A DNA stretch of 64,000 nucleotides from Microbacteriaceae bacterium PS02068 (GTDB lineage Bacteria; Actinomycetota; Actinomycetes; Actinomycetales; Microbacteriaceae). The stretch's first letter is position 1. The number at the start of each line of letters is the position of its first letter. The stretch covers positions 1 through 64,000 of the forward strand of contig JASCPF010000010.1 in the NCBI GenBank assembly GCA_029959325.1, in the 5' to 3' direction. Shown piece after piece: positions 41,493-50,820 of the stretch. Position numbers and translations under genes: made by a program. The notes under the pieces were generated by a model. The model had not been told where the DNA came from. It saw only the letters and a list, made by a program, of their open reading frames with translations, and made no database searches.

Positions 41493-41572
41493 CCGTCCAT
41501 TATCGTCGGTGGCGGCGACACGGGGCGGGGTGACACGGGGTCGCCCGCTGCACTGGCGAGAATGGACGGGTG
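41490..41572. repeat. 12-bp perfect inverted repeat spanning both start sites (recO / TRIC gene)
   Basis: CACCCGTCCATT (41490-41501) and AATGGACGGGTG (41561-41572) are exact reverse complements. Each includes the GTG start codon of its gene and the 9 nt before it. The -10 sequences are GATAAT for recO (41499-41504) and the weaker GAGAAT for the channel gene (41558-41563). Confidence 0.8.
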
Positions 41573-42256
41573 ACCGAACCCGTCTTCGTCATCCCGCTCT
41601 GGGCCGACCTCACCGCCGTCGGACTCGGCGGCGTGCAGGGTGCCCTGTTCGCGTCGGGGTTCCTCGGTCAGCGCCGGCTCGACCTGCTCGGTGTCGCGAT
41701 CATCGGCATCGTGATGGGCATGGGCGGCGGTCTCATCCGCGACCTGCTGCTGAACGTGAGCCCGACCACGCTGCAGAGCAACTGGTACCTGATCACCGCG
41801 ACGGCTGCGGCACTGGTCGGCATGCTGCTCGCGAACATCTTCCGGCGGCTCAACGGGGTGATCGTCGCACTGGATGCCATCGTCATCGGCCTCTTCGGAG
41901 CCTTCGGCACCTCAAAGGCGCTAGTGCTCGGCCTGCCGGTCGTGCCTGCGGTGTTCGTCGGGGTGTGCGCGGCCGTCGGCGGAGGCATCCTGCGCGACGT
42001 CATCGTGGGGCTTCCGGTCGCCGTCATGCACGTGGGGTCGCTGTACGCCGTCGCCGCCGCGGCCGGCTGCGCCGTACTCGCCGCGGCGACCGCGCTGGGC
42101 GCGCCGATCGCGGCCGGCGCGGTGGCGTGCGTCATCGTGACCGCGGTGATCCGGCTGCTCGCGGTGATCTTCGACATCTCGCTGCCCGAGCAGCGCGCGC
42201 TGCACCGTCGCAAGGTCGCGATCGAGACCTCGGCGATCCCGATCATCAAGCCCTGA
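41570..42256 (+). CDS. TRIC (trimeric intracellular cation channel) family protein
   Basis: A 228-residue membrane protein with about seven helices in two three-helix repeats, each carrying the family motif: [11 protein letters not shown] and [11 protein letters not shown]. Prokaryotic TRIC proteins (formerly UPF0126) form trimeric K+ channels. The GTG start at 41570 follows GAGAAT-N6, giving a leaderless mRNA. A Gly-rich interface and basic C-terminal tail are normal for the family. Confidence 0.92.
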
Positions 42257-42292
42257 CCCGCGGGCGCGGACCGGCGCGGCGGGGCCCTTCCC

Positions 42293-42365
42293 GGTGAGAC
42301 CCGCTCAGGGCGCCGAAACCCGGTGTTTCGGCGCGGGGTTTCGGCGCGTGGAGGCGGTCTCAGCG
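42293..42365. repeat. Long palindromic element, copy 1
   Basis: About 73 bp. Outer arms are TGAGACC and GGTCTCA, then a mismatch block, a partially paired CTC/GAG spacer, and an inner stem CGCCGAAACCC with GGGTTTCGGCG. The TGA of the adjacent minus-strand gene (42360-42362) is part of the right outer arm. It lies 36 bp after the convergent TRIC gene. Confidence 0.85.
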
Positions 42366-43364
42366 TCTGCGCTCTGCGGGCGCGGACGTGGGGCGCGGTT
42401 GGGGGCGCAGCGCTGCAGCCAGCGTGCGCAGCGGTTCGGCGTGTTCCGGGCTGGCGAGCGGCAGGCCGGCGGCGCGGAGCAGGGAGCGCAGCTGCTTGTA
42501 CGCGACGACGTCGTCCCACGCCCAGTGTGCGGTGGCAGACACGCCGCGGTCGCCCAGGCGCGCGTCGCGCCGGTTGCGCGCGCGCAGCGCTTCTCGGGCG
42601 TCGCCCAGCTCACCGCTGTACTTCCGACCGCCGTCAGCCTCGCCGGCGATACGCCACCGATCCCACCAGAAGTCCACACGATCGTCGTCCGCACCGGTCG
42701 GACCGAGGATCCACTTCTGCAGCTCGGGCGCGGGAAATCCAAGCCATTCGATGACGGCGAGGCTCACGGCCTCGAGCGGCGACTCGGGGGTGCCGGTTGC
42801 TCGCGCGCACACCCACACCGCACGCAGCCGCCCGCGCTTCGACACCCGGTGCGCATCGCAGTTCTCGATGTCGGCGACCGTGAGCGCGGGGTCAGCGCGC
42901 AGCGCAGCGCACGCGATCGCCAGGCCGACCGACGGATGCCGAAGCCGCGCGATGTCGACCACGGTGTCGACAACGCTCGCCACCCACACCGCGCCGACGC
43001 GTTCGACTACAGGCATCCGCTCTGCAGAGTGCACACGGATGCCCCCCTGCGCACGCGTCTTCTTCGGCGCTGCGACCAGCACGTGCACGTCTCTTGGCTC
43101 CCCGAAGATCGGGAGACCCCTCAGCACTGCGGCAGATTCGAGCACGAAGATCGCGTCCGGCCAGGCCAGGGCGACGGCATGCACGCGTACGAGATAACGA
43201 CTCCACGGCGGGAGGGCGCGATAGGCTGCCGCCTCGGCATACACACCCCGCGTCAGGCGGACAAGTGCACCAGAGCGCGCCGCGCGGTCAGCGTGCGGTG
43301 AATCGGATGCCAGGATCAGCGCAACGGGGCATTCGACCACGTCGTCCGGCGTCAGGAGTGTCAC
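42360..43364 (-). CDS. AbiEi-like / DUF559-like protein (possible nuclease fold)
   Basis: A 334-residue protein. The N-terminal about 60 residues look like the winged-helix of AbiEi antitoxin-type proteins (SGALVRLTRGVYAEAAAYRAL), the middle has an AbiEi-like beta-rich part, and the C-terminal part has RVDFWWDRWRIAGEADGGRK, i.e. D-x(n)-E-x-D-x(3)-K, similar to the Vsr/DUF559 PD-(D/E)xK core. This domain pair is common in actinobacterial orphan proteins; no partner toxin is adjacent. Its GTG start has GAGGTGGGGG upstream. It is bracketed by palindromic elements, one of which supplies its stop codon. Function unknown. Confidence 0.75.
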   Translation of the reverse strand: MTLLTPDDVVECPVALILASDSPHADRAARSGALVRLTRGVYAEAAAYRALPPWSRYLVRVHAVALAWPDAIFVLESAAVLRGLPIFGEPRDVHVLVAAPKKTRAQGGIRVHSAERMPVVERVGAVWVASVVDTVVDIARLRHPSVGLAIACAALRADPALTVADIENCDAHRVSKRGRLRAVWVCARATGTPESPLEAVSLAVIEWLGFPAPELQKWILGPTGADDDRVDFWWDRWRIAGEADGGRKYSGELGDAREALRARNRRDARLGDRGVSATAHWAWDDVVAYKQLRSLLRAAGLPLASPEHAEPLRTLAAALRPQPRPTSAPAERRR

Positions 43365-43460
43365 GCCCCCACCTCACACCATCCCGGGCCCGCGCCGACA
43401 CCCGGCACCCACATCCGTGGACAACTCCCCCAGTCCCCGGCCTGTGGAAACTCATCCTGC

Positions 43461-43534
43461 CGATGAGACCCGCTCTGCGCGCCGAGACCCCGCAAACATT
43501 TGCGGGGTCTCGGCGTGCAGAGGCGGTCTCAGCG
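43461..43534. repeat. Long palindromic element, copy 2 (most perfect hairpin)
   Basis: About 74 bp. Inner stem of 17 bp, CGCCGAGACCCCGCAAA with its complement, 2-nt loop CA; then a G-T wobble and CTCTGC/GCAGAG, a 2-nt mismatch, and TGAGACC-type outer arms with GGTCTCA. It can pair over nearly its full length. It lies 50 bp downstream of leuA and 97 bp upstream of the AbiEi-like gene, so it may also terminate leuA. Confidence 0.9.
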
Positions 43535-43584
43535 AAAATCGGTCGGCGCAGCGCGCGCGGCCGCGGCCGCTGCGCGCCGCGGCG

Positions 43585-45464
<1,880 letters not shown>

Positions 45465-50744: not shown

Positions 50745-50820
50745 CCGGTGAAACCCGGTCGAGACGCCGAAACCCGCCCAGATCTCGCCGGGTCTCGGCG
50801 CCTGGGGCGGGTCTCACCGG
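50745..50820. repeat. Long palindromic element, copy 3
   Basis: About 76 bp with outer arms CCGGTGAAACC and GGTCTCACCGG (one mismatch) and inner stem CGCCGAAACCCG with CGGGTCTCGGCG (one mismatch). Same architecture as copies 1 and 2. It lies 10 bp downstream of the rsmE stop and 65 bp before the HIT start, so it could split this operon. Confidence 0.85.

Follow-up and report, generated by a model that had tools for sequence, protein, structure and literature searches.

A palindromic element flanking and co-varying with the gene of a predicted Vsr-type nuclease in Microbacteriaceae: a possible non-HUH counterpart of REPIN-RAYT units

Main finding

A gene in the 64,000-nucleotide stretch of DNA analysed here ("the window") probably encodes a DNA-cutting enzyme, in which structural modelling predicts an AbiEi-like DNA-binding part and a Vsr/I-Bth0305I-type nuclease, and it lies between two copies of a long palindromic element. 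Sequence comparison of its homologues makes the cognacy of palindrome and enzyme well supported, and we give about an even chance to the reading that the two form a unit that is organised and works like REPIN-RAYT systems while being built on an unrelated, non-HUH enzyme.

The window locus

The features that concern us are the following (window positions):

41570-42256, plus strand: Gly_transporter (TRIC-like) gene, a flanking gene (Pfam)
42295-42362, plus strand: element copy 1, a 68-bp palindrome directly downstream of the nuclease gene (from the sequence and the covariation of the family)
42360-43364, minus strand: nuclease gene, 334 amino acids, GTG start, with an AbiEi-like part and a predicted Vsr/I-Bth0305I-type nuclease domain
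43365-43463, minus strand: 99-bp gap between the gene start and the upstream element
43464-43531, plus strand: element copy 2, a 68-bp palindrome upstream of the nuclease gene, 53 bp past the end of leuA
43585-45345, minus strand: leuA, a flanking gene (Pfam)
50749-50816, plus strand: element copy 3, a solo copy with a HIT-family gene on one side and the 3' end of an RNA-methyltransferase gene on the other

An earlier note on this DNA had claimed that two similarly oriented copies of an element bracket the gene and that the left one supplies its stop codon, and the sequence bears this out: the copies are exact 68-bp units (42295-42362 and 43464-43531), each has CGCTC in its left arm and GAGGC in its right arm when read by eye, and the last three bases of the left copy, TCA, are TGA on the minus strand. 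Pfam also agrees with the neighbours named there, leuA, RecO and the TRIC-like gene (Gly_transporter). Both copies have the ends TGAGACC...GGTCTCA, and the pattern TGAGACCN{30,60}GGTCTCA was observed twice in the window compared with a mean of 0.03 in shuffled windows. The promoter of the nuclease gene is presumably in the 99-bp gap 43365-43463, where no sigma-70-like site was found.

Several familiar identities for the locus were rejected. A scan of positions 42200-43700 gave no U-tract or terminator-like site at either flanking element, so they are not ordinary intrinsic terminators; nor do they belong to an Rfam family, as the only window matches at gathering thresholds are RNase P and three tRNAs. 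No AbiEii toxin was found among the neighbours, which are leuA, Gly_transporter and recO in the window and gcvP at 27 of 30 close homologues, and with no toxin partner beside the gene an AbiE type IV toxin-antitoxin system was set aside. The neighbours of the window gene include no methylase.

The encoded protein

The description of the gene as AbiEi/DUF559-like in the earlier note holds in substance, in that the AbiEi models of PADLOC match the window protein (best E 8e-6, residues 26-153) and a Vsr-type domain is predicted, but not in its letter: there is no Pfam DUF559 match, and AbiEi_4 is below threshold. No NCBIfam model matched the window protein, and PHROGs gave no model for three proteins. 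An AlphaFold2 model of the window protein, made from 71 sequences, has a mean pLDDT of 93.5. Its residues 13-190 align with the Streptococcus agalactiae AbiEi antitoxin (6y8q) at a Z of 7.9 (164 residues aligned, rmsd 6.3), which is close to the level that the comparison tool calls common. The nearest solved fold for the C-terminal domain (residues ~193-305) is the homing endonuclease I-Bth0305I (3r3p; Z 10.4, 94 aligned, rmsd 3.0), and the same residues resemble Vsr (1cw0; Z 8.1, 101 aligned, rmsd 3.3). The model also resembles two mitoribosome chains (Z 8.4). Residues E198, D231, E242, D244 and K248 are unchanged in 71 of 71 relatives, and such invariance of the putative catalytic residues is as expected of a working nuclease.

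Foldseek returned no PDB match at E <= 0.001 (the best was Mycobacterium tuberculosis Rv2827c, 1zel, which we take to be an AbiEi-type antitoxin, at E 0.0095; Vsr followed at E 0.25) and none at E <= 0.001 in BFVD, where the top rows, if named, were mostly nucleases. A profile search of the PDB sequences found no relatives. The family profile has a match in 239 of 394 genomes of the class at E <= 1e-15. A tblastn search with the window protein (P0001) gave no match in 72,556 plasmid and 50,697 phage records, which rules against phage or plasmid cargo, and the search of viral_contigs by single-protein peptide patterns gave no relative.

Copies, sequence and placing of the element

The element is a near-palindrome of 67/68 bp, and the draft genome that contains the window (G000) has 17 full-length copies according to R1, a covariance model built on 27 copies out of six genomes. 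Beyond these there is a half copy on contig C116, cut by the contig end, and a second half copy on C169 whose sequence is identical to the copy that ends C172. The first bases of C169 and C116 (L051 and L053) are inside an element; since contigs start within it, assembly seems to be interrupted at the palindromes, and counts from draft genomes may be lower bounds. The outer seven bases are fixed in the R1 alignment, in part by construction because the pattern that picked up most copies requires TGAGACC and GGTCTCA. The inner pairs covary, with both sides changed in 14 of 27 pairs and a score of 0.275 versus 0.104 for shuffled sequence (27-copy alignment). The hairpins are strong, and a few copies are 78/79 bp long, about one helical turn longer than the rest. 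Between clades the motif is wholly different (GAGACC, GAGACTGCA, GAGAAACC, ATAAACG and others), and element ends elsewhere, for example GCATAAACG, AAACC and CGAGACTGCA, differ from the TGAGACC/GGTCTCA of G000.

Copies number ~5 to 36 per genome, with ~31 in G067 and ~36 in G140 (strand-matches halved in all cases). According to gene calls made with our own script for G000 and G067, the 17 copies of G000 lie between convergent genes (7), between tandem genes (5), within called ORFs (2) and at contig ends (3), and the 29 solo copies of G067 lie between convergent genes (16), between tandem genes (12) and within a called gene (1). Gaps between divergent genes hold none of the 29 and none of the 12 intergenic copies of G000 for which both neighbours were callable; a promoter regulon was rejected for this absence of solo elements from divergent gaps. 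In G067, 27 of the 29 solo copies are no more than 38 bp from a gene 3' end, and in six of the 29 (seven gene ends) the TGA of the element doubles as the stop codon of the neighbouring gene. One element (L043:3808-3875) is inside a called ORF, towards its 3' end, and may encode some of the tail of the protein, which we take to be an ABC-type ATPase. A different repeat, GGTCGTTGAGCGAG...CGCTCAACGACC, occupies the TRIC-leuA gap of G014 (L143:1355-1515); it is presumably widespread in Microbacteriaceae and might have an enzyme partner of its own.

Homologues are bracketed as well

Homologues of the gene at E <= 1e-10 are present in 160 of 198 Microbacterium genomes. That they too should be bracketed was a check proposed with the original observation, and they are: R1 matches flank 27 of the 30 best loci on both sides, two on one side (one of these is cut by a contig end) and one on neither, where palindromes of another type flank the gene. 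In this R1 set the nearest upstream element begins 94-255 bp ahead of the start codon. With a plain palindrome score that makes no use of R1, both sides reach 12 or more in 53 of 70 homologues and in 1 of 101 other genes, these controls being drawn partly from loci selected for an element; at a cut-off of 14 the values are 36/70 and 0/101. A separate set of named loci ("the named set", n = 78), supplied by a single scan of genome contigs, has palindromes on both sides of 60 homologues, as compared with 9 of 121 neighbouring genes. A downstream palindrome was scored for 82 of these 121 neighbours, many presumably belonging to the homologue itself.

Loci with a pair include ones from Microbacterium, Humibacter, Naasia, Frigoribacterium and Leucobacter, 5 of 7 Rhodococcus/Rhodococcoides loci and one Propionibacteriaceae MAG. 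Outside Microbacterium bracketing is patchy, with a pair at least 0.45 alike at 8 of 20 loci, and in the broad DUF559 family pairs occur at 7 of 30 loci by a crude test with crude upstream windows. A distant homologue in an Atopobiaceae MAG (L280), an organism that we take to be outside the window's class, has a matching palindrome pair with a similarity of 0.84.

Palindrome type goes with the gene

Bracketing palindromes are thus common, but is the sequence of the palindrome related to the gene that it flanks? For the named set, similarity between the palindromes up- and downstream of the same gene is 0.554 versus 0.178 between different genes, and the maximum of 10,000 permutations was 0.251; a gene's own partner palindrome ranks first in 40 of 60 cases and in the top three in 54. 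Element similarity also tracks protein identity (Mantel r 0.591 versus a 999-permutation maximum of 0.104) in a pooled sample of two sets, 142 loci in all, from which pairs above 93% protein identity were excluded, and it drops towards background under ~45% protein identity. Such co-variation of gene and flank is in part expected from shared descent, and comparison of paralogues within one genome is the stronger control. In ten same-genome paralogue pairs the palindromes are only 0.13-0.32 alike between paralogues, whereas the two palindromes of one paralogue are 0.40-0.89 alike (L117, at 0.17, is the exception), and for three paralogues a palindrome was found on one side only.

G000 itself has a second homologue (L295) with GAGCCGC-type palindromes on both sides, as read by eye. 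It also has two DUF559-family genes that lie between two palindromes, L331 (C113:65559) with a similarity of 0.64 and L355 (C77:34820) with a similarity of only 0.29.

The sequences differ among genes and the architecture recurs. An internal direct repeat of at least 6 is present in 99 of 139 loci; its shift is exactly 19 bp at 86 of these, and no peak in repeat spacing appears once the palindromes are shuffled. At most loci the element has four half-sites, in that each arm contains a direct repeat with 19-bp spacing and the other arm mirrors it, a layout that points to a protein that would read the DNA from one face.

Element number goes with presence of the gene

The earlier note had held that a unit would be refuted if the element were equally common at unrelated 3' ends genome-wide and the gene always present without it. 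In G000 and G067 many solo elements do lie at the 3' ends of unrelated genes (above), but the gene is not indifferent to the element: the median number of R1 strand-matches is 0 in genomes with no homologue and 19 in those with a close one. By homologue class, with 26 candidates scored per genome so that the high counts are lower bounds, the results are:

close homologue (E <= 1e-60), 58 genomes: R1 match in 57, at least 8 strand-matches in 50, median 19
best homologue 1e-60 to 1e-30, 74 genomes: R1 match in 61, at least 8 strand-matches in 28, median 5
best homologue 1e-30 to 1e-10, 28 genomes: R1 match in 21, at least 8 strand-matches in 13, median 6
no homologue at 1e-10, 38 genomes: R1 match in 14 and none in 24, at least 8 strand-matches in 3, median 0

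Six genomes without the gene have at least 6 matches (G021, G060, G107, G108, G127 and G162), and their elements may be relics or their homologue may have escaped detection. Five genomes with a close homologue have no more than 3 matches (G003, G027, G063, G109 and G179).

Inheritance and change of locus

The gene gcvP adjoins 27 of the 30 close homologues, and most have a gene for a CPBP-type protease (Rce1-like, Pfam) opposite. The three others are L076, where the CPBP side is followed by a contig end, and the genes of G000 (leuA-TRIC) and G177, which are away from gcvP and are bracketed in both cases; we take the neighbours of the G177 gene to be whiA-like and sodA-like genes. In the named set (n = 78) gcvP is within reach at 43 loci, only the CPBP gene at 6, leuA plus TRIC at 3 (L218, L219 and L226) and none of these at 26. 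The relocated genes (G000, L218, L219, L226 and G177) fall with gcvP-locus genes in a 14-member clade that has a support of 1.0; a clade of these five alone is unsupported (0.149). It appears that the Microbacterium gene stays mostly at one locus and that the unit has changed locus, rarely. Because the gene is mostly inherited vertically in Microbacterium, the bracketing is partly one inherited state.

Gene-less leuA-TRIC sites, another check proposed at the outset, exist in G008 and G013. The TRIC-leuA gap of G008 is bare, with 44 bp from stop codon to stop codon, and that of G013 is occupied by a solo element, of the type native to G013 (by eye), which has an R1 match. The gcvP-CPBP gap of G000 (L124:2880-3156) has no homologue and two TGAAACACAG-type palindromes, apparently the remains of another unit. 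Tandem copies (TGAGACACAG) that resemble the TGAAACACAG-type palindromes occur at ~1290 of L052.

Three genomes that are 94-95% identical at the homologue locus, G050, G140 and G514, have ~19, ~36 and ~16 elements (strand-matches halved). Eight of their element sites were compared: two could not be placed (G050:681795 and G140:1489232), one is common to all three genomes (G140:1074053) and five differ. The differing sites comprise a half-deleted copy (G050), an empty site (G514), other sequence, a different element type and, at the fifth, a whole gene between TGTCCC-type palindromes in G050 (L210:5353-6493) where G140 has a solo element. The matches of this G050 gene to MTES_1575 (E 0.004) and DUF559 (E 0.12) stay below threshold, and tblastn with P0001 does not match it. 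Several of the differing sites look like degraded or replaced copies; none of the compared sites, whose flanks have diverged, is a clean insertion with a target duplication. The suggestion of a mobile unit is only partly borne out: we see the unit relocated and its solo copies turning over, but no clean insertion with a target duplication. We infer that the enzyme mobilises the elements.

Relation to known systems

In REP/REPIN-RAYT systems, as the consulted parts of PMC2817692 and PMC3116915 describe them, a single gene lies between palindromic repeats that recur in intergenic DNA, each enzyme of a genome has a separate element type, and there is little transfer at the level of species. The window-type gene is similar in being flanked by palindromes (27/30 and 60/78), in the many dispersed intergenic copies, in paralogue-specific element types and in the scarcity of transfer between species. 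The differences are that RAYTs are Y1/HUH enzymes while the window protein matches only AbiEi models and a Vsr-type fold, in accord with the earlier remark that it has no tyrosine-transposase HUH motif; that REPs have a GT(A/G)G head and the present element does not (TGAGACC/GGTCTCA in G000); that the flanking REPs are inverted and the window copies direct, though the elements are near-symmetric and orientation was scored in the window alone; and that the present element is 67/68 bp long with four half-sites and 19-bp spacing. PF01797 (Y1 HUH transposase) had no match at E <= 0.001 in any of eight element-bearing genomes, and this absence, the other element ends and the direct orientation in the window led us to reject membership in REP-RAYT itself.

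The N-terminal part resembles AbiEi of type IV toxin-antitoxin systems (PADLOC E 8e-6; 6y8q, Z 7.9), which binds palindromes according to the part of PMC11062541 that was consulted. AbiE differs in that the window gene has no AbiEii nucleotidyltransferase neighbour, has a nuclease domain joined to it and has palindromes on both sides and dispersed. The likeness to Vsr, I-Bth0305I and DUF559 proteins of the PD-(D/E)XK type is in the C-terminal fold and the conserved acidic residues and lysine; the window-type gene is unlike them in its association with cognate flanking palindromes, which to our knowledge are no part of the definition of any of these three families. IS200/IS605 elements and MITEs have hairpins at their ends and gene-less derivatives. 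The consulted part of PMC2817692 covers some of these features. Hairpins that flank a gene and gene-less copies elsewhere recall both, but there is no HUH transposase domain, the present element is itself a complete palindrome, and no target duplication was seen at the compared G050/G140/G514 sites with their diverged flanks. Among the papers listed by searches of the open-access literature, none was seen to describe a palindrome-bracketed AbiEi/DUF559/Vsr-like gene, and we rate the system as categorically new in its parts, with an organisation like that of REPIN-RAYT.

Alternative explanations

The palindromes could be operators or insulators for the AbiEi-like part, which would then regulate its own gene and dispersed sites, with the nuclease having some other target such as incoming foreign DNA. 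Binding of two promoter palindromes and repression by AbiEi antitoxins (consulted part of PMC11062541) and the position of the nearest upstream element ahead of the gene start are what one would expect; an operator, however, needs no downstream copy abutting the stop codon, and the solos sit at 3' ends, with none between divergent genes among the 29 of G067 or the 12 callable intergenic copies of G000, so we consider this reading unlikely. The 3'-end placing, the strong hairpins and the covariation could also mean that the elements act in RNA as terminators, mRNA stabilisers or processing sites and that the Vsr-like domain handles RNA. RAP-domain proteins have a Vsr-like domain that handles RNA, Vsr-like folds occur among the mitoribosome chains, and FASTKD4 reportedly is a Vsr-like protein, to go by the title of one paper. 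Sense-strand G-T departures exceed A-C departures by 12 to 4 in the 12 tandem solos of G067, but the 110 downstream elements have fewer G-T than A-C (86 versus 130, p 0.003, a rough value as the sequences are related), the opposite of RNA pairing, and the upstream elements are neutral (115 versus 110). The test is equivocal and leaves the RNA reading weakened; both flanking window elements are also without a terminator-like site and the exact 19-bp direct repeat would better suit the helical phasing of DNA, and we find a role in RNA rather improbable.

The closeness of the fold to I-Bth0305I raises the prospect of a selfish or guarding nuclease, in homing, addiction or defence, for which the palindromes would be marked or protected sites belonging to the enzyme, much as a homing endonuclease or a restriction-like system would have, and the G050 gene between its own palindromes at an intergenic site where G140 has a solo element would suit this. 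Against it, the ~5 to 36 elements per genome would be self-targets, the window gene has no adjacent methylase, and P0001 has no tblastn homologue in the plasmid and phage records; we think it improbable. That palindromes simply gather at 3' ends, and that bracketing is chance or one inherited accident, would agree with the preference of solos for 3' ends, the single locus common to 27 of 30 close homologues and the 82 of 121 neighbouring genes with a downstream palindrome. Matching pairs of their own nevertheless flank paralogues at different loci and homologues from further genera, and the permutation results for same-gene similarity and for the protein-element correlation also oppose coincidence, to which we assign a very small probability.

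A proposed cognate nuclease-palindrome unit

The idea of a REP-like element that travels or co-evolves with its gene, put forward from the window sequence alone, is supported by the bracketed homologues, the gene-less leuA-TRIC sites and the dependence of copy number on the gene. In a cognate nuclease-palindrome unit the half-sites would be bound by the AbiEi-like part, acting as a dimer or tetramer, and the Vsr-like part would nick or cut the element in what may be a cruciform or single-strand hairpin form. Cutting would lead to the element being copied or moved inside the genome, a copy arriving at a 3' end would survive because no gene is harmed, and the bracketing pair would tie element and enzyme together by descent. 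Cutting, copying and the form of the substrate (duplex, cruciform or hairpin) are the conjectural steps here. Enzyme-driven spread of repeats within a genome has been proposed likewise for RAYTs and REPINs (PMC2817692 and PMC3116915, consulted parts), and AbiEi has been reported to bind two promoter palindromes and repress (PMC11062541, consulted part).

More broadly, we rate at slightly under an even chance the existence across Actinomycetota (Microbacterium, Rhodococcus and the Atopobiaceae MAG) of a whole class of units that pair a nuclease with its cognate palindrome. In them an AbiEi-like reader and a Vsr-type nuclease would recognise a palindrome of four half-sites with a fixed 19-bp geometry and spread it through the genome. 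The class would be convergent with REPIN-RAYT while lacking an HUH enzyme, and its DNA specificity would have diversified into dozens of matched pairs. The persistence and upkeep of REP-like repeats have so far been tied to one enzyme class, the RAYTs. If the reading is true, a second, unrelated enzyme with repeats of its own would mean that such nested partnerships arise repeatedly and that their rules can be tested. The natural matched protein-site pairs would be a data set on how a small DNA-reading domain shifts its specificity, and the finding suggests a role for a common AbiEi/DUF559-like family in Actinobacteria.
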